A DNA stretch of 64,000 nt from Fusibacter paucivorans. GTDB lineage: Bacteria > Bacillota > Clostridia > Peptostreptococcales > Acidaminobacteraceae. The stretch covers positions 1 to 64,000 of the forward strand of contig NZ_JAHBCL010000026.1 in the NCBI RefSeq assembly GCF_018390735.1, given 5' to 3'. Of the stretch, positions 12,347 to 63,740 are shown piece after piece. The notes beneath the pieces are model-generated. The model was not told the origin of the DNA, ran no database searches, and saw only the letters and a list, made by a program, of their open reading frames with translations. Numbering within the stretch: the first letter of the stretch is position 1; the number at the start of each line of letters is the position of its first letter. A program made the position numbers and the translations under genes.

Positions 12347-13753
12347 CTAAGTCAAGCCGTAGCCGATGACATAACCTGCGGCGAGCCAAGCAATCGAAAG
12401 TATAAGCAGCATCACTTGCAACGGTAAAATAAATTTTAGCCACCTACCATAGGAAATCTGCGTTAGTCCCAGCGAAATGAGCAAAACGGCATTGGTTGGA
12501 TAAAGAATATTTGAGAAACCGTCTCCAAACTGAAATGCCAAAATACCAAGTTGACGTCCCATTCCCAACATATCCATCATCGGCATAAGAATCGGCATGA
12601 GAATAAAGGCCTTTGCGCTGCCCGACCCAATAAAAAAATTCAGCAGCATCACCAGAAAAAACGCGCCGACAATTGCTGTAATTGGATGAAGCCCCATCAT
12701 TGCGGTTGAAACGTAATAAAGAATCGAATCGAGAATCTGGCCTTCCATCATAACATATTTAATGCTCGTTGCCAGCAATATTAGAATAATCGCCGGCGAC
12801 ATGTCGACAGCTCCCTTTAAAAAGCGCTTAATCACGCCGCCTTTCGCACCATATGTCATCATACCGACACCTAGCGCTGCAATGAGAAATGACAATGCAA
12901 TAACAATAAGACTCAAATCGCGCATCCACGCCACAAATGGCGAGATCAATACATAAACGAGCATAACTGACATCACGAGAACAAAAAAAGTGTAAGCGCG
13001 TTTTGGCGGTGTTGTTGGGGATGCCGAAACGACCTCGCTATCGACTTTATCAAACAGATCTTCCGTTTCGGTCATTTTCGCTTTAAGACCGGTAACAGTA
13101 CTGTGCTTTTGTGCGTGTCGATACAAGTAAGCAAATAATACAATGTAGACGGTTATAAATACAAGCGCTCTCAACGGTGCACCTGAAAATACCGGCAAGT
13201 CAGCCAATTGTTGTGCAACGCCAATTGTAAAGGGGTTCGTCACTGCTGCAGCAAAACCCACACCGCAAGCTAATACCGTAATACCCATTCCCGTCAGATC
13301 GTCCCATCCCATTTTTCTGCTGAGGATCAGTACAAGCGGTGCCAACGGTACAACTTCCTCAAAAACACCCACAAAAGCCCCCAGAGCCATAAAAAATAAA
13401 ATGAGAATGCCCATTAACTGAAAAGCATTGTTTTCGAATCGCTTGGCAATTTTTAAAATCACGCCTTCCACCAGTCCTGTCTCCTGCAAGAGATAAATTG
13501 AGCCACCGATTATTAATAAGAATAGAATAATGGCTATGACCAAGGCGCCGGAATCACTGAATAAAACTAAAATTGGCGCACCAAGCCACTTCAAAAATGA
13601 AATGCCCGCCTGATCTGATGGTACCCATGTACCGTCAAAGGTGCCGCTTGGAATGATATACGTCAATACGCCCGTTGCCATCCACATGACCACGAGCATG
13701 ACAATAGCACTTATAAATACTTTAATTTGTGAACTGCCTTGATGATCTGACAA
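12347..13753 (-). CDS. YfcC-family (DcuC/AbgT-like) membrane carrier
   Basis: 468 aa with 11-12 hydrophobic segments, starting with a short cytoplasmic tail and VFISAIVMLVVMWMATGVLTY. GVFEEVVPLAPLVLILSRKMG and GFAAAVTNPFTIGVAQ are typical of YfcC proteins, which are assigned to amino acid, dipeptide or C4-dicarboxylate uptake. Start is TTG at 13753 with RBS GGGGGG-type 6 bp upstream. Two M20 hydrolases flank it, so a short-peptide or N-acyl amino acid substrate is likely but unproven. Confidence 0.85.
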   Translation of the reverse strand: MSDHQGSSQIKVFISAIVMLVVMWMATGVLTYIIPSGTFDGTWVPSDQAGISFLKWLGAPILVLFSDSGALVIAIILFLLIIGGSIYLLQETGLVEGVILKIAKRFENNAFQLMGILILFFMALGAFVGVFEEVVPLAPLVLILSRKMGWDDLTGMGITVLACGVGFAAAVTNPFTIGVAQQLADLPVFSGAPLRALVFITVYIVLFAYLYRHAQKHSTVTGLKAKMTETEDLFDKVDSEVVSASPTTPPKRAYTFFVLVMSVMLVYVLISPFVAWMRDLSLIVIALSFLIAALGVGMMTYGAKGGVIKRFLKGAVDMSPAIILILLATSIKYVMMEGQILDSILYYVSTAMMGLHPITAIVGAFFLVMLLNFFIGSGSAKAFILMPILMPMMDMLGMGRQLGILAFQFGDGFSNILYPTNAVLLISLGLTQISYGRWLKFILPLQVMLLILSIAWLAAGYVIGYGLT

Positions 13754-13980
13754 ATAGATCCCCCCTTCATTTTTGTGGTATTACCAGTATGTAGTCATTA
13801 TAGTTTTTTATATCCTTAAACACAAGGTGTTTTTTGAATTATCTGACTTTTAAAACGAGTGCTTTCTGCTCCTCACGCTTACACCGCACTTCAGCAATTA
13901 AAAAGAAAAAAGAACCTAGAATCGCAATCTGTCGTTCTTACAAAATGCGTTCCTAAGCTCTCCGGACTTTAATCTAATTT

Positions 13981-15072
13981 TTAGCCTAACCGCCTCTGTA
14001 TAAAAGCGACGACAATATCTCGACCAATTTCAAGTGCCTTTAAATCAAAGGTCATCTCAGGATGATGCAGCCCCGGCTTTAAATCAGCTCCGAGACCAAT
14101 AAACGTATTTTGAATATCCAAATGACGTTTAAAGAAATGAAAATCATCACTGCCGGGGGTTACCGCAGGCGGCTGGCATACACCCAGTACAGATTCAATT
14201 GCCGCAGCAGCCTCTTCTACCATCGGCTGATCCAAGTTCGCCGCGTAAATATGACCAAGAATATCGATCTCTGCCGTTGCACCAATTGAACCGACCGCCC
14301 CTTCGATTGCTGTTTTAACGCGTTCAATCAATGTATCCAGCACTTCATTGGTTTGCCCCCTAAGGTCAATATTCATATCAACCGTATCGGGAATGATATT
14401 AAAAGCCGTGCCGTGTGAACGAATCCCCGTAACTTTTGCTGAATGTGCAACAGTTGGATCGACCCGTACGGCGTTGACGGCCATTCCTGCAAGCATTGCC
14501 GCATCAACAGCGCTAACGCCCAGATGAGGCCGTGCACCATGAGATGAGACGCCGTGAATGACAACGCGCATCATGCACGCACCGCTGTGATTGAGTCCCG
14601 GCAGCGCTTCCCCCAATGACAGTTCGGTATAGTCTCTTAAGTGCATGCCAAAGAGCTCTGTCATTGCCGGAAGTCGACCGCTCTGAATCATTGCCATTGC
14701 ACCCGTCCCCTTTTCCTCGGCCGGTTGAAAGATAAACATCATTTTCCCTTTTGAAATGCCTCTTTCCTTAATAATGCAGGCTGCACCCAATGCGATCGCG
14801 CAGTTGGCATCGTGACCGCACGTATGACGGTTTACAGTTTTACCGTCTATTTCATACGCAAGCGCATCCATATCGGCACGAAACCCCAATACAGGGCCGG
14901 GCACACCGGAATCCAAAATACCAACTAAACCGCATTGTCCTACATTATCAATCACTTCATAACCCAACTCAGTGAGTGTATCCGAAATAAAGCGACTTGT
15001 CTTCGAGAGTTCAAAGCCCGTTTCAGGCATTTTATGCAATTGATTATAGATTTCTACTACGCTAAACGACAT
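13981..15072 (-). CDS. M20D amidohydrolase (N-acyl-L-amino acid hydrolase/HipO-like)
   Basis: 363 aa. The metal site cysteine motif HTCGHDA (near residue 82), FQPAEEKGTGA (catalytic Glu) and HPEMTFD near the C-terminus define the M20D branch (hippurate hydrolase, aminobenzoyl-glutamate hydrolase subunits, IAA-amino acid hydrolases). It should cleave an amide bond of an N-acyl amino acid. RBS GGAGGA. It lies upstream of the YfcC gene in the same direction with a 227-bp gap, so shared function is likely while shared transcription is uncertain. Confidence 0.87.
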   Translation of the reverse strand: MSFSVVEIYNQLHKMPETGFELSKTSRFISDTLTELGYEVIDNVGQCGLVGILDSGVPGPVLGFRADMDALAYEIDGKTVNRHTCGHDANCAIALGAACIIKERGISKGKMMFIFQPAEEKGTGAMAMIQSGRLPAMTELFGMHLRDYTELSLGEALPGLNHSGACMMRVVIHGVSSHGARPHLGVSAVDAAMLAGMAVNAVRVDPTVAHSAKVTGIRSHGTAFNIIPDTVDMNIDLRGQTNEVLDTLIERVKTAIEGAVGSIGATAEIDILGHIYAANLDQPMVEEAAAAIESVLGVCQPPAVTPGSDDFHFFKRHLDIQNTFIGLGADLKPGLHHPEMTFDLKALEIGRDIVVAFIQRRLG

Positions 15073-15138
15073 TGCTGCAATTCCTCCTCGTCTGTCTTTA
15101 CTAAAGTGAACATTATTATTGTTGTTCCTCCCGCATTG

Positions 15139-15948
15139 CTAATCCCACTGCATTGTTAAACCAACGCCAACTTCATGTATTGGATGGCGCTCATGTATTT
15201 TAGCCTTTGCTTTAAACGAAACGCAGTGACTAGGGTAGAGTTGCGCCACTTTGTTTGCCTCAAAGTAATCAATGGTTTTTATAACTTGCTCATTCACTTC
15301 AAATAAATGAAAACCGCCAATGATCCCTGCAATCCGCTCTGTCTTAAAAATTTGTTTCGCATATTCCGTAATATTGCAGATCCCGCTGTGTGAACAACCC
15401 GTGATAATCCATAACCCGTCAGCCGAATCATAGACAAGAGCTGTATCGTCAATAAGGGCATCATCTTCCCAATTGCCGTCAATATTAATTTGACTTTTAA
15501 GTTTCGGCTTTTCAAAATCGTTAAGCCTTGGAATTTCACCTAAAAAAGTAATGTGATCACTTAGTTTCATAGGTTCTTTCGTCAGTGATAATTCACACAT
15601 TTTAGCCATTTCAGCTGTATTATAGGGCGCACCAACATCATTCCCCTCAGCTTGTTTAGGCTGAAAACACAGCGGGTGTGCAACAACCTTTACTGATTGC
15701 AGATCTATTTTGTCTTTCAGATATTGAAGGCCGCGTGTATGATCATCGTGACCATGTGAAAACGCAATGGTGTCAACTGTTCCCAAATCAATGCCCATCT
15801 TTGCGGCATTTTGCAAAAAGGCATCTGAATAACCAACATCAAATAAAATGCGACGATCACCATCTTCAAGATAGTAGCAGGCAGCCGGTTCACCTAAATA
15901 ATATTCATTAATGTGTGTATGGTTGTCCATTAATACCGTAAGTTTCAT
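15139..15948 (-). CDS. metallo-beta-lactamase fold hydrolase
   Basis: 269 aa. The metal motif SHGHDDHTRGL (near residue 64) and a later GCSHSGICN (near residue 178) and GGFHLF (near residue 209) place it with MBL proteins annotated as 7,8-dihydropterin-6-methyl-4-(beta-ribofuranosyl)aminobenzene-phosphate synthase-like. True substrate unknown. RBS GAGAGGTGA. Ends 66 bp before the M20D gene. Confidence 0.82.
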   Translation of the reverse strand: MKLTVLMDNHTHINEYYLGEPAACYYLEDGDRRILFDVGYSDAFLQNAAKMGIDLGTVDTIAFSHGHDDHTRGLQYLKDKIDLQSVKVVAHPLCFQPKQAEGNDVGAPYNTAEMAKMCELSLTKEPMKLSDHITFLGEIPRLNDFEKPKLKSQINIDGNWEDDALIDDTALVYDSADGLWIITGCSHSGICNITEYAKQIFKTERIAGIIGGFHLFEVNEQVIKTIDYFEANKVAQLYPSHCVSFKAKAKIHERHPIHEVGVGLTMQWD

Positions 15949-16312
15949 TTTTTCACCTCTCTGATTATCTGAATTTCTACTGCCGGCCTTCCTTCGTCAT
16001 ACTGATTGGTAACCTTGGAACAGCCTCTCTTCACTTTAACATATTTTTACCCCTTACACAGCCTTCCAAATGAATTTATGCCCAAAACTTTGCCGACCTT
16101 CACGCTTTTGCCACTCATTGCCATCGTTCATTGGTGTCATTCACTGGCGTCGCTATTTGGCAACTGTATCTTTTAGCCAGTTGCCTCAAACAGCATTTTC
16201 AACCGTTTTACATTATGCTATGATGTAGAAAAGCGATCCCATTTCGACGCTTATACCGCCTTAACGGTTTGACTTGGCGGCTAATGGACTCTTGGAAAAT
16301 AAAGGAGATATG
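15949..16312. other. intergenic region upstream of the RNase H gene
   Basis: 364 bp with no convincing gene. A TATGAT-like -10 near 16220 on the plus strand may serve the RNase H gene; the -35 is weak. Nothing else recognised. Confidence 0.4.
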
Positions 16313-17076
16313 ATGCTGCATCATTTACACATGCGCATCACTCAAAAGTGCGCATCAGGGTATTTATTGGAGATTAATAATCGGCTGTCAGATCAAACAG
16401 CCTCGCTGATGTTTGACCCTCATGAAAAACACATTATTTGGGGAGAACATACCGAACTTGCCGTTTTCCTAATGGCAAATGAAGATCAATTCAGGCGTTT
16501 GCTTCACAATAAAAAAGCCGATTCTTTTTTTATCGATTTTGAACTCGATTTCAGTCTATTGGACGGTAAGGATATTCGCGCCTTCAATGATAAACGCAAT
16601 ATCGTCGTTTCAGACCACGGCGATCTTTATGTCATTCAAGAATCACAAAACGTACAATCACTGAAATCTATACGGATGGCAGTTATAATGAATCTCTGGA
16701 AACCGGGGGCGGTTGTTTTCTGATCAAGGCAACTGACGGCGCTTATCAGGCAAATCATTTTCCGATATCGGGCAAAGGGTCATCGCGCATTGAACTCGAA
16801 ACAGTTATTGCGGCACTTTCAGCCTACTCGGATGATGTGCGCATCGTCACCGATTCACAGTATGTGCGCAAGGGCATCACGGAGTGGATACAGCACTGGC
16901 AGCATAACCATTGGATGACAGCCAATGGTACAAAGGCAAAAAATATTGGATTATGGCAGCAGCTCCATGAACTCTGCGCTCTACGGTATATCGAATTTCA
17001 ATGGGTTAAAGCACATCGGCAGCAATTCGAAAACACTTATTGCGACCTTCTGGCCAAAGAAGCTGCAAAACGTTAA
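16313..17076 (+). CDS. RNase H family protein split by a -1 frameshift
   Basis: The first frame encodes about 113 residues of N-terminal domain (start ATG 16313, GGAG 5 bp upstream). The RNase H domain follows in the -1 frame and is open from 16594, but it has no start codon of its own. The domain keeps all four acidic catalytic positions: YTDGSY, RIELE, VTDSQY and the final NTYCDLLAKEA, with WVKAH before it. Adding one A to the A4 run at 16647-16650 joins the frames into a natural reading (SQKRTITEIYTDGSY). No canonical slippery heptamer is present. Sequence error, recent mutation or true frameshifting are all possible; intact active site argues against old decay. Confidence 0.7.
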
Positions 17077-17120
17077 AAAGTCACCCCCCACTACCTATAT
17101 GGGCGATGACTTTTTATATT
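17073..17120. terminator. terminator after the RNase H gene
   Basis: AAAAAGTCA/TGACTTTTT stem with extra CCC/GGG pairing; it starts at the stop codon and can act in both directions. Confidence 0.65.
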
Positions 17121-17220
17121 ATTATACACAGATTTGGAGGGGCACTCGCAAAATCTAGTGTGATAATCCACTGATGTATCCTCTTGATCGAAACTTAACC
17201 GATCAATCTACTTTTAATAT

Positions 17221-17256
17221 CAACATGACTCTCGATGTCAACATGGCTCTCGACAA
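17221..17256. repeat. 18-bp tandem duplication
   Basis: CAACATGACTCTCGATGT is followed directly by CAACATGGCTCTCGACAA, with three differences. Noncoding. Confidence 0.6.
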
Positions 17257-17331
17257 AATACCCCATTATATCACCATTGCCATTTACTGTATGACTCAAT
17301 CATGTAACCATTCAGATTTGACCCATTCATG

Positions 17332-17721
17332 TCAATGATGAAATTTAATTGCGTCTAAAACGGGAATATACGGTTTAATATCCAACACGGGACATTGGTC
17401 CATTTTCTCCGGGCAAGTAACGGTTAACGTATTTTCAGCAATATCGACAATTTCAGCAATCGCCTGTAATATCGGGTTAGGGCGATTTTGAGATCTCGAT
17501 GCAAAAACGCCCAAATCTACAACTGAACCCGGCGGTTTAAGCATCAGTACATCGCGTTTTGAAGTCATATCCCAATACGTAATCATCACGCTGAGTTTTG
17601 GCGTCAGTCCCACGATAGCCGGCATAAAGGCAGCATCCAAAACAATGTCAAATGTATGACATGAATCTGACGCTTTTAAACACATTACAGGGTGAATAAT
17701 CCCAATGGTTTTTAGTTGCAT
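17332..17721 (-). CDS. TrmO/TsaA-like (UPF0066) methyltransferase domain protein
   Basis: About 129 aa, the short form of the family; E. coli TrmO, which methylates tRNA t6A37 using SAM, is about 235 aa. The hallmark GVFASRSQNRPNPI (near residue 74) and the closing DIKPYIPVLD are present. Only the SAM-binding N-terminal half is encoded, so the substrate may not be tRNA. ATG at 17721 has GGAGG 8 bp upstream; ATG at 17727 is possible but too close. It stands alone behind a cobalamin riboswitch and two hairpins with T-runs, a strong hint at a role linked to B12 or cobalt. Confidence 0.8.
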   Translation of the reverse strand: MQLKTIGIIHPVMCLKASDSCHTFDIVLDAAFMPAIVGLTPKLSVMITYWDMTSKRDVLMLKPPGSVVDLGVFASRSQNRPNPILQAIAEIVDIAENTLTVTCPEKMDQCPVLDIKPYIPVLDAIKFHH

Positions 17722-17771
17722 ATCCATCGCCTCCGCATTCTAAAAAAGGTGTATGGCGATAAGAGTATCAT

Positions 17772-17802
17772 AAAAATGCCACCTATCAGTTGATAGATGG
17801 CA
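17772..17802 (-). terminator. Rho-independent terminator in the leader of the TrmO-like gene
   Basis: 11-bp stem (TGCCATCTATC/GATAGGTGGCA on the minus strand) with TTTTT after it, between the riboswitch and the gene. Fits an attenuation platform. Confidence 0.75.
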
Positions 17803-17813
17803 ATACACGGCAT

Positions 17814-17836
17814 AAAAAGGCTCTATCTTAATAGCC
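17814..17836 (-). terminator. second hairpin with T-run behind the riboswitch
   Basis: Minus-strand GGCTATTAAGATAGAGCC with TTTTTA directly after. It directly follows the riboswitch aptamer and could be the switchable terminator, making two stops in a row. Confidence 0.5.
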
Positions 17837-17865
17837 TTGCACTCCATCGTCCGTAGAGTTCTTGC

Positions 17866-18030
17866 AAACGGCATTGGCAGGTCTTCTGACTTATGGCTCT
17901 TCACCTGTTACGCCTTCCCACCTTACGGCAGTGGCATCTGTAATAGGCTCCTCAAATACAGCAGCGGGACTGTGCAGGAATCACACCTGTTTCCCTTTTA
18001 ACGGCACATTGTGCAGACCAATGCTTACTA
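17866..18030 (-). ncRNA. cobalamin riboswitch (AdoCbl class) upstream of the TrmO-like gene
   Basis: Minus strand shows the conserved core in order: AAAGGGAAaCaGGTG, GATTCCTGCACAGTCCCGC, GCCACTG, GGGAAGGCG and the B12 box AAGTCAGAAGACCTGCC. Cobalamin binding to this RNA normally lowers expression of the downstream gene. Confidence 0.93.
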
Positions 18031-18044
18031 TTTTATTGTTACTT

Positions 18045-18073
18045 ATTTTATCGTTTCTCAACATTTTTGTCTA
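18045..18073 (-). promoter_or_regulatory. sigma-A promoter of the riboswitch transcript
   Basis: Minus-strand TAGACA, 17-bp spacer, TAAAAT, placed just before the riboswitch 5' end. Confidence 0.6.
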
Positions 18074-18205
18074 GATAGATTTTTACGCAATTTTATATTA
18101 TTTCGGTTAAAATAGTTGCATGTTGTAAACCATCAACGACTCTTTGGTCATTTAAAATACCATTCTTCCTTTAAGCACGGGGTAGGCATTTTACTCATCC
18201 TTTGC

Positions 18206-18211
18206 TATAAT
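18206..18211 (+). promoter_or_regulatory. -10 element of yaaA
   Basis: TATAAT 68 nt before the start codon with a partial -35 (TAGGCA) at 17-bp spacing. Confidence 0.45.
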
Positions 18212-18278
18212 GTTTGCGATATCAGCCTGAAGTATAAAGTTCATTCTCATTATTTTTATTGAAAGGAGCATCATTCAA

Positions 18279-19037
18279 ATGATACTCATCATATCACCTG
18301 CCAAAAAAATGAATCTCGACATTGACAGTCTCCCCTATGAAACGCTCCCTGCTTTTTTAAATGAAACGACTGAAATTTTAAAAACACTCCGAACTTTTGA
18401 TTACGCTTCACTTAAAAAACTGTGGGCCTGCAACGATTCCATCGCTACACTCAACACAGAACGCGTGCGTGAAATGGATATCACGCGGCGGCTGACCCCT
18501 GCTCTTCTCGCTTATGAAGGCATTCAGTATCAATATATGGCACCGCATGTCTTTGAAGATCGCCATTTTGAATATATTAAAACCCATTTGCGAATCCTCT
18601 CCGGCTTCTACGGCGTCTTGCGCCCCTTTGACGGCGTTACACCCTACCGACTGGAAATGCAGGCTAAGTTAAAGGTAAACGGCTATCAAAACCTTTATCG
18701 CTTTTGGGGAAAAAAATTAGCGCTCCATCTCGCTAAGGAAACCGATCTCATTATCAATCTCGCCTCTAAAGAATACAGTCGGAGCATCGAACCTCATCTG
18801 CCTAAACACGTTAAGGTCATCACCTGTGAATTCAGCGAAAATATTAATGGCAAGCGCATTGAAAAAGCAACCCTCTGCAAAATGGCACGCGGCGAAATGG
18901 TGCGCTACATGGCAGAAAATCAAATTGAAACCCCAGATGGGATCAAGTATTTCAACCGCCTCGATTATGCCTATGATGAAAACGTTTCAACAGATACACA
19001 CTATGTTTTTATCAAACGTCCAACCCTACGTAAATAA
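18279..19037 (+). CDS. yaaA: YaaA family peroxide stress protein (UPF0246)
   Basis: 252 aa. It begins ILIISPAKKMN and holds YQYMAPHVF, GFYGVLRPFDGVTPYRLEMQ and the lysine-rich C-terminus of the YaaA family. In E. coli YaaA is an OxyR-induced DNA-binding protein that limits free iron damage during peroxide stress. The next gene on the same strand is a peroxiredoxin behind a PerR-like operator, a matching context. AAAGGAG lies about 10 bp before ATG. Confidence 0.92.
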   Translation: MILIISPAKKMNLDIDSLPYETLPAFLNETTEILKTLRTFDYASLKKLWACNDSIATLNTERVREMDITRRLTPALLAYEGIQYQYMAPHVFEDRHFEYIKTHLRILSGFYGVLRPFDGVTPYRLEMQAKLKVNGYQNLYRFWGKKLALHLAKETDLIINLASKEYSRSIEPHLPKHVKVITCEFSENINGKRIEKATLCKMARGEMVRYMAENQIETPDGIKYFNRLDYAYDENVSTDTHYVFIKRPTLRK

Positions 19038-19088
19038 TTCCCTTCCAAATCTTTTTCAAACATGGCGAAAAAAAATTTAAGATTGTTA

Positions 19089-19117
19089 TTGACATATGCT
19101 TTATAGAATGTTATTCT
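19089..19117 (+). promoter_or_regulatory. sigma-A promoter of the peroxiredoxin gene
   Basis: TTGACA, 17-bp spacer, TATTCT. The PerR-like box starts 4 bp downstream, so a bound repressor would block it. Confidence 0.7.
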
Positions 19118-19121
19118 CATA

Positions 19122-19136
19122 TTGTAATCATTACAA
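19122..19136. promoter_or_regulatory. PerR/Fur-type operator
   Basis: TTGTAATCATTACAA is a perfect 7-1-7 palindrome differing from the PerR consensus TTATAATNATTATAA only at one symmetric position pair. ATTCTCA/TGAGAAT arms extend the symmetry on both sides. It overlaps the transcription start region of the peroxiredoxin gene. Confidence 0.82.
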
Positions 19137-19253
19137 ATTGAGAATAGTTTTCTTTCACTTGTTCTTTTCCCACTGAGACATTACATAGTGACATCAAATT
19201 CTCATCACACAATTGTTAAACTAAAAATCATATTATTTCTAAGGAGGCAAACA

Positions 19254-19913
19254 ATGGAACCCGCTAAATTACCTTTACTAGGAGACGCTTTTCCGAAAAT
19301 GCAAGTAACGACAACACACGGTGTTAAAACACTACCTGATGACTATAAGGGCAAATGGTTTGTACTGTTCAGCCATCCCGGCGATTTCACCCCTGTCTGT
19401 ACCACTGAATTCGTCGCTTTTTCAAAGAAGAATGAGGCTTTTAAAGCACTCAATACTGAATTGATCGGCTTATCAGTCGACCAAGTTTTCTCACATATTA
19501 AATGGATTGAGTGGATCAATGAAAATACAGATACCACTATTCCATTCCCGGTTATCGCAGATGAACTCGGCATTGTTGCCACAACACTTGGCATGCTGCA
19601 CCAAGGTAAGGGAACCAATACAGTTCGCGCCGTCTTTATCGTCGATCCCGAAGGTGTCCTGCGCCTGATGATGTACTATCCGCAAGAAATCGGAAGAAGT
19701 GTCGATGAAGTTCTCCGTGCATTAAACGCTCTGCAAGTGACTGATGCCAATGGTGTTGCCGCACCTGAAAACTATCCGAACAACGCATGGCTCGGTTCAG
19801 ATGTCATTGTGCCGCCAGCAAATACCGAAGCACTGAAAGCACAACGATTAGCCGATGCAGCAGCCGGCAAAATCACTTGCAAAGACTGGTGGCTCTGCCA
19901 TAAAAAGCTTTAA
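19254..19913 (+). CDS. peroxiredoxin, Prx6/1-Cys-type long form
   Basis: 219 aa thiol peroxidase. The active site is [14 protein letters not shown] (peroxidatic Cys near residue 47), followed by the Prx6-type long C-terminal arm. A further cysteine pair near the end ([12 protein letters not shown]) could serve as resolving thiols, as in archaeal-type Prx6 proteins. It reduces hydrogen peroxide and organic peroxides. ATG at 19254 with AAGGAGG is chosen over an upstream in-frame start at 19188 that has no RBS. PerR-type control is likely from the operator. Confidence 0.92.
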
Positions 19914-20084
19914 TACGGTATAATCCATAGAATGATTTACCGGTGTCACACGAGAACTTGTGTCTGACCATCATCAATTGGAAGCATCGTTTAAAAAATG
20001 CTATTGGTCTTAAAACAATTCCTGCTATGACAATCTAAAGAAATGATGTCGTTTCCTCAATTAAAAAAGCACCTAAAAAAGTAC

Positions 20085-20122
20085 CTTCCAAAGCAATATA
20101 ATTTTGGAAGGTATTTTTAATT
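20085..20122. terminator. bidirectional terminator
   Basis: ACCTTCCAAA/TTTTGGAAGGT stem with A-run before and TTTTTAATTT after. It lies between the peroxiredoxin gene and the convergent anti-sigma gene. The rest of 19914-20242 holds only short direct repeats of CTTTCGTTAAT and TTCACCTAAA (20158-20205). Confidence 0.72.
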
Positions 20123-20242
20123 TCAGCAATTTTGCATTTAAGAAACTTACTTGATGATCTTTCGTTAATCTTTCGTTAATCCTTCACCTAAAACTTCACC
20201 TAAAGCGCTATTCTAAATGATCTACCATCGCAGTTCGATAAG

Positions 20243-21298
20243 TTATTCCACACTTTCTAAAGGAAACGTAACCCGCCAGTCGCCTTCCGTCTTCATACCA
20301 GAAGTCACAAAGTCGCCATATAAAGCGTACGCTGCTATGTTTTCGAGTGGTACATCGAAGACGCATTCATGATAGTCAATGCGGCCGATCTGCTCGTCTG
20401 TCTCGGAAAAGTAGAAGCTAAAATCACAGTCAATTTCAGTGCCGTTTTCATCTTTCAAATAAAAGAATCCGTGATTATCATTGTCAAGCGGGTGTTCTAC
20501 AGCCGTTTGTATATGCAGCTCACCGTCTATATAGGCAATACCCGTGAATGCGATGCCGTCAATAGGAAAGTTTGCCATGGGAACTGACGGCACGAGCGCA
20601 ATGGGATTTTTCTCAAATTCCAAATAGCCTTGATAATCTCGTCCGCCGCCGCCATTCGACGATACGGTTTGTGTATGCTCGGCGTCCGCTATATTGGCAA
20701 GTGAGACGGGAATCGCCAGATCTTCATAGCTGTTTTTTTGACTTAAAAATTCTCGCACAGAAAACGTGATTTTATCCCCGTCAATATTTTGTCCACCCCA
20801 TTCGTCTATTGTAATTAAGAACGTAACGATTTTTGTTTTTTCATCATACCCAATCATCTGACAATGGGCTGAACTATCAAAGGGACGATTAATTGTATAA
20901 CTATCAAAGAGATCTGTCGTGCCATCAATGCGATTTTCAGTTAGATCCTGCATGGTCACATAGATTTCTGCCGTTTTCTGATGAATATTTGCAGAAACGA
21001 CCTCTAATTTTATACCATTGCTAATACTGGATTTTTGGACCGGCATAAAAAATTGCGCCACGCTTGGCGAAACCATATACATCAGCTGGTAAATCGGTTC
21101 TACCGTGGATGCAATGACAGGCATCGTCATTACTAAAATTGCGCTAAAAACGACGAGCATCATGATATTTCTTTTCAATCTTAGCGATATCATGCGCTTC
21201 TTGCAATGCTTACCGCGAGCCGCGCTTAAAACGTCCTGCATCAGCTGTTCGCTTGGAAAAATATGACTATTCATACGGTGATAGCTTTCTTTAAACAT
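20243..21298 (-). CDS. DUF4179-type membrane anti-sigma factor
   Basis: 351 aa. Residues 1-42 are cytoplasmic and basic. One membrane segment (NIMMLVVFSAILVMTMPVIA) follows, then an extracellular domain rich in beta-type sequence. This build fits DUF4179/RsiV-like anti-sigma factors, although no zinc-binding ZAS motif is visible. The gene overlaps the ECF sigma gene by 8 bp (start embedded in its end, RBS GGAGGAGG), so the pair is translationally coupled. Confidence 0.78.
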   Translation of the reverse strand: MFKESYHRMNSHIFPSEQLMQDVLSAARGKHCKKRMISLRLKRNIMMLVVFSAILVMTMPVIASTVEPIYQLMYMVSPSVAQFFMPVQKSSISNGIKLEVVSANIHQKTAEIYVTMQDLTENRIDGTTDLFDSYTINRPFDSSAHCQMIGYDEKTKIVTFLITIDEWGGQNIDGDKITFSVREFLSQKNSYEDLAIPVSLANIADAEHTQTVSSNGGGGRDYQGYLEFEKNPIALVPSVPMANFPIDGIAFTGIAYIDGELHIQTAVEHPLDNDNHGFFYLKDENGTEIDCDFSFYFSETDEQIGRIDYHECVFDVPLENIAAYALYGDFVTSGMKTEGDWRVTFPLESVE

Positions 21299-21779
21299 CC
21301 TGATCCTCCTCCAGTATATTTTTTAGCATTGCTCTCGCACGTGTAAGCTGCGTTCTTACCGTAGAGCTCTTTCGCTCTAAGCTTTCAGCAATGGCTTCTG
21401 TGGACATATCCTCATAGTAGTATAAGTGAATAACCTCTCTATATTTTGTCGGTAGCTGCTGCAATTCATTATAAAGATCAATGGCCTCTTTTGTTTCAAA
21501 GGGCAGGGTTTCTTCTAAAGGCACTATCTTTCTCTTCCAGGCAGAACCCCATAGTTTTTTGGAACAATTAACCGTTACTTTGATAAGCCATGCTTTTCTG
21601 TGGTCTTCATTTTCAAAAACCGGCTGTTTTTTGATATAGCGTAAAAAGACTTCTTGATAAATCTCATCGGCATCGTGTCTTGTTCCCGTTCGCGCAAAAG
21701 CAAGACGATAGACCATGTTGCTATAGCATTTTATAACCGCTTCGGCACTTTCATCCATACACAATGGCTGTGGCTCCAT
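21291..21779 (-). CDS. ECF sigma factor (SigV/SigW-like)
   Basis: 162 aa. Region 2 is visible as MVYRLAFARTGTRHDADEIYQEVFLRY and region 4 as LPTKYREVIHLYYYEDMSTEAIAESL followed by STVRTQLTRARAML, the DNA-recognition helix. It should direct RNA polymerase to envelope or stress genes when released by the downstream anti-sigma factor. RBS AAAGGAGGGG. It is probably autoregulated, but no clear ECF promoter was picked out by eye. Confidence 0.92.
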   Translation of the reverse strand: MEPQPLCMDESAEAVIKCYSNMVYRLAFARTGTRHDADEIYQEVFLRYIKKQPVFENEDHRKAWLIKVTVNCSKKLWGSAWKRKIVPLEETLPFETKEAIDLYNELQQLPTKYREVIHLYYYEDMSTEAIAESLERKSSTVRTQLTRARAMLKNILEEDQDV

Positions 21780-21841
21780 ATTAAATCCCCTCCTTTCACC
21801 CTAAACACCTTTCAACGAGTCATTATGCTACAGGCAAAAGC

Positions 21842-23574: not shown

Positions 23575-23584
23575 GAGGGAATGA

Positions 23585-57161: not shown

Positions 57162-58082
57162 TTAGTGCTCAGAAACGTTTTGCACATCCTCATGCACATC
57201 CTCATGCGCTTCTTTGAAGCGAAATGTCGGTTTGAAATGGATAAAAGCCACTTGAAGCTGACGCTGATAATAGCTTATGCCCTCTTTTACAATAATGGCG
57301 CTTTCAAATATTTTCTTTGCGTCCTGATAGGGTAAATGATGCTCATTACATATTTCTTTTAATGCTTTCAAAGACGCTTCCGGCGATTCAAGTGCCATAG
57401 ATTTCGTGACTGTCTTAATCGTTAACTGTGGATCAATTCCCAAACTGTAAAGCAAATTAATCAGGTATATGTATTCCTGACACCGCTCAATTCCTTTGAC
57501 AGAGAACTGATTCAAAACTTGATCAAACATATGACGCTGCATCGTCCATATAAGGACGACATTTTCTCGAACGCTATTGTTCATCTTCTTTAACGCCGAT
57601 TCCATGTCGATAATCCGATAGTTGGCATTGACAGCATAGATACTATCAAACGGTGCGCCATCATTGATCTCAAAGGTTTCGAATTTGCTCCGGCAGCAGT
57701 TAATATTTGGGATGCGCTCACTTTCGATTTTCATCATGAGCTTATGGAGCATATGCTGAGAGAAGTCAATTGCCGTGATGGCTTGACTTCTGCGTGACAA
57801 TGGAATGGTGAATTTACCTGTGCCACACCCAAATTCAAGTAACTTCTTTCCTTCTCCAACAATACTGATTAAATAATCAAGCAGCTCTGGAGCATCATCA
57901 TATAGAGATGGGATCCCATCGTACTTTTCGCTGTATGTTTCCCAAAATGCCGTTTCCTTTTCATCTGAAAATGCTCTATCAGCATGTATACCAGGTTTTA
58001 ACGCTAACGTCTCACGCCATATCTGATTAAAATCCACATCATGTTTTTTCATTAATGTCATAAACGCACTTCTATTTTCCAT
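57162..58082 (-). CDS. class I SAM-dependent methyltransferase
   Basis: 306 aa. KLLEFGCGTGKFTIPLSRR (near residue 79) is motif I for SAM binding, then AITAIDFSQHML (motif with the acidic ribose-binding residue) and DSIYAVNANYRI. The C-terminal third is not typical of a known group. It lies 136 bp after the second ATPase gene of the cobalamin-regulated importer in the same direction, with repeat copy B in between. A role in metallophore or corrinoid handling is possible but only inferred from place. RBS GGAGA. Confidence 0.82.
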   Translation of the reverse strand: MENRSAFMTLMKKHDVDFNQIWRETLALKPGIHADRAFSDEKETAFWETYSEKYDGIPSLYDDAPELLDYLISIVGEGKKLLEFGCGTGKFTIPLSRRSQAITAIDFSQHMLHKLMMKIESERIPNINCCRSKFETFEINDGAPFDSIYAVNANYRIIDMESALKKMNNSVRENVVLIWTMQRHMFDQVLNQFSVKGIERCQEYIYLINLLYSLGIDPQLTIKTVTKSMALESPEASLKALKEICNEHHLPYQDAKKIFESAIIVKEGISYYQRQLQVAFIHFKPTFRFKEAHEDVHEDVQNVSEH

Positions 58083-58137
58083 CTTTTTTCGTCTCCATTA
58101 ACATAATCACCGTCTTAAATTTTAAAAACACATTAGA

Positions 58138-58221
58138 TGAGTCAATTGCATCATTCAAATAATAATCTCTTCACAACATTCTAGTGAAGGATCAACGAAA
58201 AGCGATTATGCAATTTCCTCA
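58138..58221 (-). repeat. nested inverted-repeat element, copy B
   Basis: 84 bp. Minus strand shows GAGGAAATTGCATAATCG, then CTTTTCGTTGATCCTTCA shared exactly with copy A, then TTTGAATGATGCAATTGACTC. Outer arms pair imperfectly. It overlaps the stop of the ATPase gene by a few bases. Confidence 0.7.
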
Positions 58222-58974
58222 AATATCAAAAAAAGCGAATTCTTCGACAAGTTTTTTAACATAAGCCGTCTTTGGACGCGTCAGCAGTTGTTCTGTTGTC
58301 CCTTGCTCAACGACGCTTCCACAATATATTACGGCAAGCGTTTGACACGTTTTCGAGATTACTTCCAAGTCATGAGAAATCAAAATCATCGTCATACCCG
58401 TCCTTTTTTGTGCCGTTGTTAAAACGTCAAAGAGCTTCGCTTGTACGGAAACATCCAGCATTGAAGTGCCCTCATCCATTACCATTATTTTTGGTTTCAG
58501 CAACAGTGCTCTCGCAATTGCCATCCGCTGTGCTTCCCCACCACTGACTTCATGCGGATATCGATGCAACAATGTCTCTGATAAGTCAACTTGGCTGAGC
58601 ATTTCTCGAATCGCAGCATTAAATTTATCACGGTCAATACGCTGACTAACTTTTAGCGCCTCCATCAAGGAATGTTCAAACATCATCTTGGGGTCAAATG
58701 ATTGTGCAGGATGCTGAAAGATCATTTGAATAGATTGGCTTCGTTCTTTTCTGGAATAGCTGCTAACGGCTTTACCATCAAGCAGTACACTGCCGCTTGT
58801 CGGCGGTATTAACCCCATCATCACACGTGCCAGCGTCGATTTGCCGCAGCCGCTGTTGCCTGCGATCCCCATAATTGTGCCCTGAGGAATGTCAAATGAC
58901 ACATTATCCAGCGCTATTTGCGTCTGTCCAAGCCCCTGTTTAAATATCTTTGTGACATGCTTCAACTCAATCAT
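58219..58974 (-). CDS. Opp/Nik-type ABC importer ATPase 2 (NikE/DppF-like)
   Basis: 251 aa. Walker A AGNSGCGKSTLA, Q-loop IFQHPAQSFDPKM, signature VSGGEAQRMAIARAL and Walker B IMVMDEGTSMLDVSVQ. Note that the usual DEPTSALD is DEGTSMLD here. Overlaps the first ATPase gene by 8 bp. Fifth gene of the importer. Confidence 0.92.
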   Translation of the reverse strand: MIELKHVTKIFKQGLGQTQIALDNVSFDIPQGTIMGIAGNSGCGKSTLARVMMGLIPPTSGSVLLDGKAVSSYSRKERSQSIQMIFQHPAQSFDPKMMFEHSLMEALKVSQRIDRDKFNAAIREMLSQVDLSETLLHRYPHEVSGGEAQRMAIARALLLKPKIMVMDEGTSMLDVSVQAKLFDVLTTAQKRTGMTMILISHDLEVISKTCQTLAVIYCGSVVEQGTTEQLLTRPKTAYVKKLVEEFAFFDI

Positions 58975-59905
58975 ACAAAATACACCTCACCATTGTGTCG
59001 GGATCTATCTCACGCAGTTCGACGAATTGGACTTTACACTTAGCACTGGCAAACTGACATCTGCTATAAAATTTGCACCTGCTCTCATGGGATGGGTTCA
59101 GATGATCCGGTATTGGCGTCATACCTGCTTTCGGCGTTGCCATAAGCAAACCTTTTGTATAAGGATGCAACGGCGTTGTCAATACTTTCTTTGCCTCACC
59201 AATTTCAACAATTTCACCTTGATACATCACGACAATTTGCTCACATAGTTTTTTGGCAAAAAAAAGATCATGTGTGATGACAATCATGCTTTGGGTATAA
59301 TGTTGGCGAATCTCCCAGAAGACATCATAGATACTCCGTCGCAATATAGCGTCTAATCCCTTTGTCGGTTCATCTGCAATTAGCCAGCTCGGGTGACAGA
59401 TCAAGCCCATAATGGCAATTAGTCGCTGATTCATGCCGCCACTCATCTGAAAAGTGTACTGCTGCATCACTTTTTTGGGCATTTCAAACCCAAAACACCT
59501 TAGATGCGCTTCAACTGTTTTTCGAGCTTCCGTGCGTGAAACATCAAAATGCTTAATCAACGGTTCCATGAGCTGACGTCCTATCGTTCGAACAGGATTT
59601 AAAGCTTCATTGGGATTTTGGACGATTAAACCGATCTCTTGTCCACGTATTTTACGCATCGACTCTGCGTCCAGCGCGTATAAATCTTTATGTCCAAAAA
59701 AGCATGTGCCTGAAATACACGCTTGTTTGGGCAAGAGCTGCAAAATCGACATTCCCAATACGGACTTTCCACTGCCTGTTTCACCAATAACGCCTGTGAT
59801 CTTTCCCGCCTTAAATGTGACGTTAACCTGATCAACTGCCGATACCCGCTTTGATTTTAAAGCAAATTCAATGGTGACATCTGCCATTTGAATATCATAA
59901 TGCAT
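58967..59905 (-). CDS. Opp/Nik-type ABC importer ATPase 1 (NikD/DppD-like)
   Basis: About 312 aa. Walker A GETGSGKSVLG, Q-loop IVQNPNEALNPV, signature MSGGMNQRLIAIMGL, Walker B WLIADEPTKGLD, and a C-terminal cysteine motif CKFYSRCQFASAKC (iron-sulfur-like Cys cluster seen in Dpp/Opp ATPases). ATG 59905 is preferred to 59926 because AAAGGAG stands 6 bp before it. Overlaps the permease by 11 bp. Confidence 0.92.
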   Translation of the reverse strand: MHYDIQMADVTIEFALKSKRVSAVDQVNVTFKAGKITGVIGETGSGKSVLGMSILQLLPKQACISGTCFFGHKDLYALDAESMRKIRGQEIGLIVQNPNEALNPVRTIGRQLMEPLIKHFDVSRTEARKTVEAHLRCFGFEMPKKVMQQYTFQMSGGMNQRLIAIMGLICHPSWLIADEPTKGLDAILRRSIYDVFWEIRQHYTQSMIVITHDLFFAKKLCEQIVVMYQGEIVEIGEAKKVLTTPLHPYTKGLLMATPKAGMTPIPDHLNPSHESRCKFYSRCQFASAKCKVQFVELREIDPDTMVRCILYD

Positions 59906-60716
59906 CATTTGCTCCTTTATTGACATCCAGTTTGTCTCTCATATAATCACCAATCGCATGAACGCTCCAAACAAAAGTAATAATGGCTGCACCCGGTGCT
60001 GCCATCAACAGTGGGTGTTCCCGAAAATAGGGTCTGGCATCACTAATCATAATCGCCCAATCTGGCGCGGGCGGCTGAAGTCCCAATCCCAAGTAGCTTA
60101 ATGAAGCAACACTCAAAACCACTGAACCAACTTTTGTTGCAAATAAAATGATTAAACTATCTGATAAGTTGGGTAAAACATGGCGAATAAAGATCCACCC
60201 GTCACTTGCACCAACACTTTTCATGCCTTCTATAAAATTAGCATGCTTCAGCTGCATCACCTCACCGCGGACAATACGTGAAAAACCAACCCACGAATTC
60301 ACTGTTACGGCAATCAGCAAACTATTCATCCCGGGTCCGAGGACTCCTGCAAATGCAACCATAATACTGACGCCGGGAATCCCTAAAAAGACATTGGAAA
60401 TACCCGTAATCAAAAGATCTGCTTTACCGCCATAGTAACCTGCCACAAACCCGACTGCTGTACCGATCCCCATTGAAATCAGCGTCGCAGCAAATGCCAG
60501 TAAAATAGACTGTCTACCACCATACAACACTCTGCTAAATGTGTCGCGTCCCAAGGAATCAGTCCCCAAAATATGGGCTGCTGTAGGGGCTGACAATCGA
60601 TTTTGCATGTCAATCATCTCGGGATCAAATGGTGCTAACAATGGTGCTAAAATAGTGATCAGCACGATTGCACCAAGTATCATAAAAGGCATTGCTTCCA
60701 TTCGCTTCATTTTCAT
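59895..60716 (-). CDS. Opp/Nik-type ABC importer permease 2 (NikC/DppC-like)
   Basis: 273 aa with six membrane helices. GTDSLGRDTFSRVLYGGRQS is the DppC signature after the first helix, and NFIEGMKSVGASDGWIFIRHVLPN is the ATPase-binding EAA loop. Start overlaps the stop of permease 1 (ATGA). Confidence 0.93.
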   Translation of the reverse strand: MKMKRMEAMPFMILGAIVLITILAPLLAPFDPEMIDMQNRLSAPTAAHILGTDSLGRDTFSRVLYGGRQSILLAFAATLISMGIGTAVGFVAGYYGGKADLLITGISNVFLGIPGVSIMVAFAGVLGPGMNSLLIAVTVNSWVGFSRIVRGEVMQLKHANFIEGMKSVGASDGWIFIRHVLPNLSDSLIILFATKVGSVVLSVASLSYLGLGLQPPAPDWAIMISDARPYFREHPLLMAAPGAAIITFVWSVHAIGDYMRDKLDVNKGANDAL

Positions 60717-61654
60717 AGCGAATCTCCCTGTTTCATCCTAGGATTGATTAAAAAATACAACATGTCAATCAGCAAATTACTCAGTACATAAATGGTGCCA
60801 GTCAGCAGAACAAACGCCTGTATGATAAAATAATCTCTATTGTAGATAGCGTCAATAACATAACTGCCCATTCCAGGTAATGCAAAGATGGATTCGATGA
60901 CTGCAGAACCACCTAAAATACCTGCAAAGTACAACCCAAAGAAGGTAATAATCGGAATCATCGCATTCTTAAAAATATGCCAAGTACCAATAAACGATTT
61001 TGACATGCCCTTTGCCGAGGCAACTAAAACGTACTGCTTTGATATTTCACCAATAAAATTGGACCGAGAGAGCCGTGCAGAAGTACCAATGGTTCCCATT
61101 GAAAGAACGAGTGACGGCATGATAAAACTTTTGACGCCTTCCATACCGGACGTTGGCAGCAGATGAAAGCATTCAGAAAAAATGGCGATTAAAATAATCG
61201 CCATACAAAATCCTGGTATGGATACCATTAGTGTACATAATTGCCTTAGAAATCGATCAAGGATCGTATCCCTTGTGGCAGCCATAACTGCTCCAATACC
61301 AAGGCCAGCAACCACTGTTATCACAAAAGCGCTGAATGCCAGCTTTAATGTAACCGGCATCCTTCGCAGCATCTCTGCTTTAATCTCTTCGTTGTCATAG
61401 ATTGACTTGCCAAAATCACCTCTTATAACGCGATTAATCCAATTGACATATTGAATATGATAAGGCAAATCCAGACCAAGTTCAGCTCTTTTGGCATTGA
61501 CCATGGCTTCGCTGGGCTCCGTTATTCCATCACGGGTTAAGGATAGGTATACGGGATCCCCAGGCGAAACCAAGCCTAAGAAGAATGCAAAAATGGTAAT
61601 ACCAATCCACACGGGCAATAGACTAATTACCCGTTTTAAGAAATAGTGTATCAT
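60713..61654 (-). CDS. Opp/Nik-type ABC importer permease 1 (NikB/DppB-like)
   Basis: 313 aa. FLKRVISLLPVWIGITIFAFFL at the start, the DPVYLS loop and the EAA loop SAKGMSKSFIGTWHIFKNAMIPI near residue 215. ATG 61654 overlaps the binding-protein stop as ATGA and is chosen over the longer 61666 start. Confidence 0.93.
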   Translation of the reverse strand: MIHYFLKRVISLLPVWIGITIFAFFLGLVSPGDPVYLSLTRDGITEPSEAMVNAKRAELGLDLPYHIQYVNWINRVIRGDFGKSIYDNEEIKAEMLRRMPVTLKLAFSAFVITVVAGLGIGAVMAATRDTILDRFLRQLCTLMVSIPGFCMAIILIAIFSECFHLLPTSGMEGVKSFIMPSLVLSMGTIGTSARLSRSNFIGEISKQYVLVASAKGMSKSFIGTWHIFKNAMIPIITFFGLYFAGILGGSAVIESIFALPGMGSYVIDAIYNRDYFIIQAFVLLTGTIYVLSNLLIDMLYFLINPRMKQGDSL

Positions 61655-63327
61655 TGCCCTGCCCAATGTACCTTGTCGAGGGTTACACCATAGTTGACCG
61701 CTTCGTAACCTTCAATCTTTTTATTAAACGCAACCAGTGTCACATCATTGAAATACGGAATAACCGGCAGCTCTTCCACCGCGATTGTTTGCAGACGGTT
61801 ATACATCGCTTCTCTCTTTGCCATATCGAGTTCTCCAGAGACATCTTCAATTAACTTATCTACCTCTGTATTACTGTAACCAAAGCTCCATGATTTATTT
61901 AAGCTATTATCAGTCTTCATCATGCTCGAAAATAGGCTGACGGGTTCAGCACTGGAAAGGCCTTTAATTTTGAGCGAAAGATCATATTCCCCCTCTTTTA
62001 CCGCCGCACTCCATGCCGCATTATCCAATATTGTTATTTCTGCGTCAACGCCGATTTCCTTTAGTTGTGCTTGAAGCAGTTCCGCTTCTTCTTTATTGGG
62101 ATAGCGATTTAATTCACCGCTTCTCAATACCAATGCAACTGAGACTCGTTCATCTCCAAGTACTTCCTTGGCAAGCGATTTTGCCTTTTCAACATCATGC
62201 GGAATATCGAATGCTTCATAAAAAGGTGTCATTTGATTGAGAACATTTACCGTAGGGTACCCAAGTCCTGCATAAAAACTATCTAAAATCAGCTCTCTGT
62301 CAATTAGCAAGCTAACTGCTTGGCGCATTCTCACATCGTTAAATGGAAATTTATTCCCATTGACAATGATATAATGCGTAATGGTACTTGGCGTATAGGA
62401 AATATCAAAATCGCCGGTTTCTACGAGCGACATCGCCATGACCGGCTGAATAGCACCCAAGTCAAGCACCCCCATCACCTCACCTGATTTAAGTGCTGAA
62501 TAACGCGTATCAGGATCAGGGATCACTTTTATACGAATTTGCGCAATTTGCGCTTTATCGCCATAATAATCGTCGTTACGTGCAATAACTGTATAAGAAT
62601 CAAGTACGTTTTCAATGAGTTTAAATGGTCCTGTTCCCATTGGCAACCCGTTAAAATTGCCTTCTGCATCAAAGTTTTTCGGACTGTACATTGCACTGCC
62701 AAAATTCGTCATTGCATAATCTAGTGTTGGCAAAGGTGACGCAAATACCAATTGGATTTCATAGTCACTTAACTTTTCTACTTTTTCCAGCCCCGGATAG
62801 GTCGTATCAATGTTCATCGTATAGAAATTCGAAGATTTTTCACCGAGTTTCATCCGATCAAAATTCGCAATCACAGCATCTGCATTAAACGGTTCACCAT
62901 CATGAAACGAAACGCCCTCTTTCAATTGAAAAGTCCAAATCGTGTAATCTTCATTGGCGCTGTATGATGCCGCGAGTTTTGGGATCGGAGCACCACTTTC
63001 GTCACTGGCGATCAACGGTTCCCAAACCATGAGTATTGAACTGCAATAGTAGGCATCGTTTTCACCAGGTGCAATGTTTCTTGTTCCCGCCAGAACAATT
63101 TCCGCATCAGCAACGTCAGAAACCTGTTCATCATCCTCTTCTTCATCAGCTGTCCGATCAGATTCGTTGTTTTCATTTAATGCAGCCTGAGCAGCCGCTT
63201 CATCAGGCTTATCAGTTGTTGCATTGACATCGTTATTGCTGCAGCCAGCTACCCCCAGAACCATTACGATGGCCAAAATAATCCATAAATAGCTTTGCTT
63301 TTTTTTCATTTTTGTTAATCCTTGCAT
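61651..63327 (-). CDS. Opp/Nik-type ABC substrate-binding lipoprotein (SBP family 5)
   Basis: 558 aa lipoprotein: signal WIILAIVMVLGVAGC with lipobox VAGC, then a very acidic linker of about 45 residues (DRTADEEEDDEQVSD). The SBP5 domain shows YTIWTFQLKEGVSFHDGEPFNADAVIANFDR and NDVRMRQAVSLLIDRELI. First gene after the cobalamin riboswitch, so the ligand is probably Co/Ni, a metallophore complex or a B12 precursor rather than a peptide. RBS AAGGAGGG 9 bp before ATG 63327; M7 is an alternative. Confidence 0.9.
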   Translation of the reverse strand: MQGLTKMKKKQSYLWIILAIVMVLGVAGCSNNDVNATTDKPDEAAAQAALNENNESDRTADEEEDDEQVSDVADAEIVLAGTRNIAPGENDAYYCSSILMVWEPLIASDESGAPIPKLAASYSANEDYTIWTFQLKEGVSFHDGEPFNADAVIANFDRMKLGEKSSNFYTMNIDTTYPGLEKVEKLSDYEIQLVFASPLPTLDYAMTNFGSAMYSPKNFDAEGNFNGLPMGTGPFKLIENVLDSYTVIARNDDYYGDKAQIAQIRIKVIPDPDTRYSALKSGEVMGVLDLGAIQPVMAMSLVETGDFDISYTPSTITHYIIVNGNKFPFNDVRMRQAVSLLIDRELILDSFYAGLGYPTVNVLNQMTPFYEAFDIPHDVEKAKSLAKEVLGDERVSVALVLRSGELNRYPNKEEAELLQAQLKEIGVDAEITILDNAAWSAAVKEGEYDLSLKIKGLSSAEPVSLFSSMMKTDNSLNKSWSFGYSNTEVDKLIEDVSGELDMAKREAMYNRLQTIAVEELPVIPYFNDVTLVAFNKKIEGYEAVNYGVTLDKVHWAGQ

Positions 63328-63453: not shown

Positions 63454-63544
63454 CTCACCTGCAAAAACACCGTGCTGAAATCATTCATCGAAAGCACATT
63501 GCCTCTAGCATTTAATTCTTCACTGGAAAATCAAATACACACCT

Positions 63545-63690
63545 GTATAAGCAGGTTTCCTGACTTATGTGTCTTCGCTTCTCTCACCTTCCCGGTTTCC
63601 CAGTGGCATTTGAAAGTCGCTCTACAATTACAGTGGCCTGACCGTTCGGGATTTTAACCCGATTCCCTTTTACCTTAATGTTTAAGCACT
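63545..63690 (-). ncRNA. cobalamin riboswitch upstream of the Opp/Nik-type importer operon
   Basis: Minus-strand core in order: AAAAGGGAATCGGGT, AATCCCGAACGGTCAGGCC, GCCACTG, AACCGGGAAGG and B12 box AAGTCAGGAAACCTGC. A terminator follows, so cobalamin should reduce importer expression. Confidence 0.93.
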
Positions 63691-63740
63691 TATACATGAA
63701 ATTATTCAATTGTTATATGATTATCAATAACTTGATCACA

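Follow-up and report, generated by a model that had tools for sequence, protein, structure and literature searches.

A short UPF0066 gene directly behind a cobalamin riboswitch in Fusibacter paucivorans, with a candidate role in cobalt or corrinoid acquisition

The window, which is the whole stretch of DNA analysed here (64,000 nucleotides, positions 1 to 64,000 of contig NZ_JAHBCL010000026.1 of Fusibacter paucivorans), carries a cobalamin riboswitch whose only gene encodes a short UPF0066 (TrmO_N) protein (Table 1). With moderate confidence, we read this gene as a member of the B12 regulon from a family of short UPF0066 proteins engaged in the handling of trace-metal ligands, the window copy being a changed-ligand or partner protein in cobalt or corrinoid acquisition.

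Table 1 Features of the UPF0066 locus and of the second riboswitch transcript in the window
Feature	Coordinates	Strand	Basis	Remark
Sigma-70-like promoter, TAGACA-17-TAAAAT	18045..18073	(-)	Consensus scan, 10/12	5' of the riboswitch
Cobalamin riboswitch aptamer, RF00174	17859..18037	(-)	Rfam covariance model
Expression platform: P13-like hairpin CTCTACGGACGATGGAG, weak T-run hairpin, strong intrinsic terminator	17777..17858	(-)	Folds and scan
Short UPF0066/TrmO_N gene, 129 aa	17332..17721	(-)	Pfam PF01980; start by Shine–Dalgarno (SD) spacing
Inverted repeat with T run, probable terminator of a monocistronic transcript	17074..17116	(-)	Fold of 17060-17125(-), -23.7 kcal/mol, z -5.2	Also ends the gene on the opposite strand
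Second cobalamin riboswitch	63533..63708	(-)	102.5 bits	Separate transcript, same regulon
NikA-like substrate-binding protein (SBP), two permease, two ATPase genes and a class I methyltransferase	57162..63327	(-)	Open reading frames; Pfam	Behind the second riboswitch; same regulon

The aptamer matches RF00174 over the full length of the model (positions 1-189), and its 116 bits (E 2.2e-28) exceed the gathering score, which is 31.5. The promoter-like sequence upstream of it is weak by itself, because 17 matches of such quality occur in the scanned region when 9.9 are expected. Of the two T-run hairpins, the first (approximately 17838-17817) is present in one fold and absent from a refold of 17846-17820, a stretch too short for the purpose; the second (17802-17777) is a strong intrinsic terminator of 11 pairs (-16.9 kcal/mol, z -6.6) and supplies the expression platform, either a terminator or control of the ribosome-binding site, that is expected of RF00174. 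An earlier note on this DNA had described a riboswitch core, a promoter and two T-run hairpins directly upstream of a single gene, and all of these parts are found. The aptamer is most similar to two other riboswitches of its own genome, those on C22 (70% identity) and C86 (66%); nine others reach at most 61%, a weak thirteenth being left out. By eye, the letters of the P13-like hairpin recur unchanged behind the C86 aptamer and in altered versions behind the C22 aptamer and that of a Tissierellia metagenome-assembled genome (MAG; L065), and a fold places a T-run hairpin 3' of the C86 aptamer as well.

Repression at high B12 is the likely direction of control, because a terminator is present and, in a survey of 86 cobalamin riboswitch reporters, a terminator was predicted for 37 of the 38 that showed repression (PMC9600662). 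With plentiful corrinoid, the terminator would form and the transcript would stop; scarcity of B12 would lead to synthesis of the lone short UPF0066 protein. The parts and their order are observed, and the direction is read from the terminator.

The pairing of riboswitch and gene is not due to chance, because it occurs twice in the same genome. The assembly (4.43 Mb, 96 contigs) contains 13 cobalamin riboswitches, and of its three TrmO_N genes, two lie directly behind a riboswitch: the window gene and the 137-aa gene on C86 (hypergeometric P ~3e-5, assuming 4200 genes). The C86 gene leads an operon that continues with genes for an FMN_bind+Peripla_BP_2 protein, a FecCD permease and an ATPase (the last assigned by eye), and its product scores 135.9 bits with the TrmO equivalog model TIGR00104, over the cut-off of 93.25. 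The third TrmO_N protein (C11, 161 aa) also passes, with 124.7 bits, and the nearest riboswitch on its contig is about 105 kb from its gene.

The window gene could start at the ATG at 17727, giving 131 residues (17727-17332(-)), the form in which residues are numbered below; a GGAGG at 17734-17730 sits 8 nt upstream of the inner ATG at 17721, which is probably the true start and yields the 129 residues given in the earlier note. The transcript is monocistronic by its layout: downstream of the stop codon come the inverted repeat with its T run and then a gene on the opposite strand, an arrangement that gives no indication of read-through into other genes and agrees with the description of the gene as standing alone. 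No metal-type ABC genes adjoin it. The opposite-strand gene, RNase H-like by eye, extends over two frames (16274-17076 (+)), with a first open reading frame to 16723 and the RNase H part in the other frame from about 16650; either an assembly error or a real frameshift could account for the split.

The protein matches the Pfam TrmO_N domain (64.6 bits, E 1.3e-17), and its AlphaFold2 model (pLDDT 89.3) has the β-barrel fold of the family, with 2nv4, the structure of AF0241, as the best match in the PDB by Foldseek (TM 0.84), and with 3okx, 7btu and 1xqb among the further matches. TIGR00104 is still its best NCBIfam match, at 66.2 bits, which is under the cut-off. The chain ends at residue 131 and contains no DPR, and so the C-terminal DPRxxY domain is missing.

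In AF0241, Gln22 and Asp111 contact the amino group of AdoMet and Arg82 and Lys122 its carboxylate; the protein is dimeric and Lys122 is supplied by the other subunit (PMC4132733). The relatives of the window protein retain these four residues nearly throughout, and the PxQG loop that bears Gln22 is close to invariant among them (P20 and Q22 in 81 of 81, G23 in 80 of 81). At this loop the window protein has an alignment gap: Gln22 is deleted, Asp111 is replaced by Glu (as in 13 of the 81 relatives), and Arg82 and Lys122 are kept, leaving neither the complete set of TrmO contacts nor the PxQG motif of the short archaeal-type branch. The window protein is thus probably no normal AdoMet enzyme, and the earlier designation of a SAM-binding form, which suits the relatives, is doubtful for this copy.

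Four cysteines, at positions 16, 23, 105 and 112, form two CX6C pairs that flank the loops holding AdoMet in AF0241, as judged from the alignment and from the strands of the AlphaFold2 model. Cys105 takes the place of a Gly found in 80 of 81 relatives and Cys112 that of a Ser or Thr found in all 81. Equal short spacing of both pairs arises in 0.6% of shuffles (a test chosen after the pattern had been seen), and four cysteines are present in 10 of the 82 proteins compared. That the four form a metal site is a guess. It leads to a bolder proposal, which we regard as a long shot: the AdoMet pocket of a UPF0066 barrel would have turned into a metal site, with one CX6C pair by the former PxQG loop and the other round the former Asp111 loop, placing four cysteines where the relatives bind AdoMet, and the protein, its synthesis confined to times of B12 scarcity, would carry cobalt to corrin-ring synthesis. 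If so, the window protein would be a new kind of B12-regulated metallochaperone, and many TrmO-annotated proteins of anaerobes and methanogens would belong to a metal-ligand processing family.

The window copy is probably sister to the C86 protein. Two trees group them (92/80 and 95/78, neither starred), and the end branch leading to the window copy is very long in both: 3.69 for a tree median of 0.19, and 3.43 for a median of 0.26 in the second tree. Riboswitch similarity, with C22 and C86 nearest, agrees with these trees and fits a joint copying of switch and gene. The window gene would then probably have arisen by duplication of the short UPF0066 gene, itself riboswitch-controlled, at the head of the present BtuF/FecCD-type ABC operon on C86. 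This placing is weakened by the UPF0066 proteins of four genomes of one genus (L206-L209), which are 38-40% identical to the window protein over its whole length (C86, 39%); in a tree that includes them, joining them with the window protein is not rejected (p-AU 0.365). The separation of short from other TrmO types is itself not firm: the larger tree shows it as a starred branch, but in the smaller tree the C11 TrmO, whose branch is long, is placed within the short group (82/61). In L206-L209, genes for FecCD, ATPase, short UPF0066 and FmdE-like proteins stand in one row, by eye.

A duplicate of this kind could simply be in decay: the C86 leader (or a C22-like one) would be the source of its riboswitch and gene, and its protein would be losing function. 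The very long end branch and the loss of a loop that does not vary among 81 relatives both speak for decay, as do the searches for orthologs: no clear one was found in 61 genomes of relatives, 391 of the class and 398 of the phylum (samples that partly overlap), and the one congener compared, 90% complete, has no short-type match. Viral contigs contained no ortholog, and the 132 matches in plasmid records are all below 60% identity (28-41% among the 15 matches listed). Against decay, the locus is intact, with a full open frame, a start site with good SD spacing, an aptamer, a terminator and a confidently predicted fold. Along a simulated neutral path from C86 to the divergence of the window copy, a mean of 4.4 stops accumulated and 1.3% of 300 simulations were free of stops; late decay after long constraint is compatible with this result. 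We consider decay unlikely, albeit a contender to be taken seriously.

The loss of Gln22 and the retention of Arg82 and Lys122 also suit a pseudoenzyme partner of the C86 protein, a rather doubtful alternative in which both proteins would be made at low B12 and pair in a putative mixed dimer. By the logic of AF0241, where dimers and a Lys acting in trans are known (PMC4132733), such a dimer would have one whole site, made of Gln22, Arg82 and Asp111 of C86 with Lys122 of the window copy, and one changed site. The same kind of switch at both genes would fit this arrangement.

A search for UPF0066 members among riboswitch-regulated genes, as the earlier note had proposed, shows that the pairing recurs outside Fusibacter. 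In Proteocatella sphenisci DSM 23131 (L054), a cobalamin riboswitch at 3716-3899 precedes a short UPF0066 match from 4001 (the same protein as L029); in the Tissierellia MAG, a riboswitch broken off by the contig end lies directly 5' of a short UPF0066 gene; and in G259, of the same class, a riboswitch lies directly 5' of a short UPF0066 gene with an SBP_bac_5 gene next (L052). Together with the two Fusibacter genes, the pairing is seen at five genes, spread over four genomes. In the majority of the short-type loci scanned, there is no switch directly upstream: one was found in 2 of 41 named loci (the part of the 80 described below that was scanned with Rfam) and in 0 of 29 phylum loci. There was likewise none directly 5' in the 20 loci scanned among 25 other TrmO_N loci, and none above the Rfam threshold in the Tetragenococcus loci L055 and L057. 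Triage by a B12-box regular expression missed the P. sphenisci switch, and that screen is therefore incomplete.

Several loci were rejected as switch-controlled genes. In seven (L056, L078, L116, L125, L168, L187 and L194), a riboswitch lies nearby and not directly 5' of UPF0066; in L044 and L142, UPF0066 comes before the cobalamin riboswitch, so that the gene is beside the switch and not under it. In L044, the riboswitch is followed by an SBP that shares 55% identity with the SBP of the C86 operon. The UPF0066 genes of L044 and L142 group with other TrmO types in the tree, and L142 stays in the control count below.

Short UPF0066 genes are often found with genes of metal transport. We compared 80 named C86-type loci from bacteria and archaea, the best 80 of at least 492, with 25 other TrmO_N loci, all of one class and thus differing in taxonomy; neighbours were assigned by phmmer against 19 representatives, with four more for a phylum sample. 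A metal-type SBP or permease (Fec/Btu, Nik or Znu) lies within 1.5 kb in 36 of these best 80 of at least 492 short-type loci, the remaining 44 having none, and in 1 of the 25 controls (Fisher P 8e-5); the one control locus with such a gene is L142, which adjoins cobalamin switches. In the phylum sample, which partly overlaps the named loci (L191 and L122 coincide in their gene coordinates), a metal-type subunit is present at 17 of 29 loci, and at 21 of 29 when a CooC-like or FmdE gene is also counted. The operons take various forms: SBP5, UPF0066 and NikB-like in Methanothrix; ZnuB, ZnuA and UPF0066 in Methanoculleus; Peripla_BP_2, FecCD, ATPase and UPF0066 in Thermoanaerobacter; and UPF0066, CooC-like, Peripla_BP_2, FecCD and ATPase in L122. 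Some include flavin reductases or FMN_bind domains. On two alphaproteobacterial plasmids, a gene annotated 'SAM-dependent methyltransferase' is followed by an SBP, an 'iron' permease and an ATPase, one such row coming after moeA; an Agrobacterium plasmid and a haloarchaeal plasmid have no such transporter row beside the gene. Translation-type neighbours, identified by eye, are a KsgA-like gene in L133 and a gltX-like gene in L067.

Fusions in a single frame point in the same direction. In Desulfotruncus arcticus (L056), UPF0066 is joined to a CooC-like ATPase in a protein of 409 aa, the second part of which is 55% identical to a separate protein of L078; the best solved relative of the latter is CooC, a CO dehydrogenase accessory protein (3kje, E 7.7e-15). 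L084 combines UPF0066, FmdE and a zinc finger (L126 is similar by eye), and L092 a class I methyltransferase and UPF0066. The FmdE-UPF0066 combination has already been named as a proposed architecture (PMC2954224), which matches L084 and, by eye, L126; the accessible text of that paper states no role for UPF0066. We favour a corrinoid or cobalt role over tRNA methylation because of the neighbourhood counts, these fusions and the recurring riboswitch pairing.

From operons and fusions, we infer that short archaeal-type UPF0066 proteins may act in taking up trace-metal ligands (cobalt/corrinoid, nickel, Mo/W, zinc) or in processing them once they are in the cell. They would most likely be AdoMet-dependent methyltransferases whose substrate is the ligand or a partner protein and not tRNA, and such processing perhaps frees the metal inside the cell, alongside flavin reductases and FMN_bind domains. 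The window copy, having kept the fold, lost the PxQG loop and gained two nearby CX6C pairs, is most likely a changed-ligand or partner protein and not an ordinary methylase; it would aid the supply of cobalt or corrinoid, alone or together with C86. The earlier interpretation is thereby supported in part: a role in corrinoid or cobalt metabolism gains from a probable sister gene at the head of a riboswitch-controlled BtuF/FecCD-type operon and from the frequent company of metal-type ABC genes, and its other branch, the saving of SAM or methionine, finds no support, as set out below.

Comparison with known systems delimits this reading. Like the archaeal-type short YaeB/UPF0066 protein AF0241, the window protein is short and lacks a C-terminal domain, and the folds agree; unlike it, the window protein is B12-switched, carries Glu in place of Asp111 and is missing the loop with Gln22. 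With E. coli TrmO (YaeB), the tRNA (t6A37-N6) methyltransferase, it shares the TrmO_N domain, an RPNPI motif and the Arg and Lys that contact the AdoMet carboxylate, but it differs in the missing DPRxxY domain, the score under the TIGR00104 cut-off, the riboswitch and the presence of metal-type transporters near many of its relatives. The window locus has the RNA family and the terminator logic in common with cobalamin riboswitch regulons that include Btu/Fec or NikABCDE transporters; it differs from them in having UPF0066 as its only gene.

The window protein might nevertheless be an ordinary tRNA m6t6A methylase under B12 control, tuning threonine decoding for example. Its TrmO_N domain and best NCBIfam match would agree, and short relatives exceed the TIGR00104 cut-off (in addition to C86, L029 with 146.1 bits and L092 with 155.9). 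This is very unlikely, given its own score below that cut-off, the loss of one of four AdoMet contacts and the Glu for Asp at another (the latter shared with 13 of 81 relatives), the separate 161-aa TrmO without a riboswitch in the same genome, and the metal-type transporters near so many of the best-matching relatives. The saving of SAM or methionine when a B12-dependent methionine synthase runs short of cofactor has B12 control alone in its favour and is scarcely credible: no methionine or SAM gene was recognised by eye among the open reading frames of 10000-27000, the relatives go with metal transporters, and the Gln22 loop is lost.

According to PMC4132733, the C-terminal DPRxxY domain is specific to gamma/beta-proteobacteria and mammals, archaeal YaeB lacks this motif and might have a different RNA, or a protein, as its target, and the substrate of archaeal-type UPF0066/YaeB was open in 2014. 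In the open-access literature we found no later answer, no biochemistry of a short member, and no paper linking UPF0066/TrmO to a cobalamin riboswitch, B12 or an ABC transporter. The NCBIfam TrmO model accepts short members despite the open substrate. The Fec/Btu, Nik and Znu neighbours, the CooC-like and FmdE fusions and the B12 switch found in several Bacillota all indicate a part in the handling of trace-metal ligands. This is a direct, testable lead, for which the window copy provides a natural variant with a changed cofactor site.

The other riboswitches of the genome precede cbi/cob genes, btuFCD-type operons and cobT-like, nrdD-like, mutase and other genes, as well as a NikA-type operon (names mostly by eye from translations). 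In the operon behind the second riboswitch of the window, Pfam supports the SBP, one permease, one ATPase and the methyltransferase; NCBIfam matches for the SBP and the methyltransferase are all under curated cut-offs. The class I methyltransferase that ends this operon is 25% identical to a methyltransferase of L131 (E 6e-17), and its kin occur near short UPF0066 genes of methanogens; it may thus belong to the same theme as the UPF0066 link. Elsewhere in the genome, two cobalamin riboswitches lie back to back on opposite strands (L021, G000:C11:61564-62074): downstream of the first are a gene for an Asp-Al_Ex permease and others that resemble succinyl-CoA synthetase genes (by eye), and the second has no open reading frame of at least 90 aa directly 3' on its strand. 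A further one (L020, G000:C15:28418-28587) lies 5' of a gene for an nrdD-like (B12-independent) ribonucleotide reductase, by eye. Finally, the window contains a T-box leader at 26625-26879 (-) (122 bits), 5' of a valyl-tRNA-synthetase-like gene (by eye) at 26543-24051.
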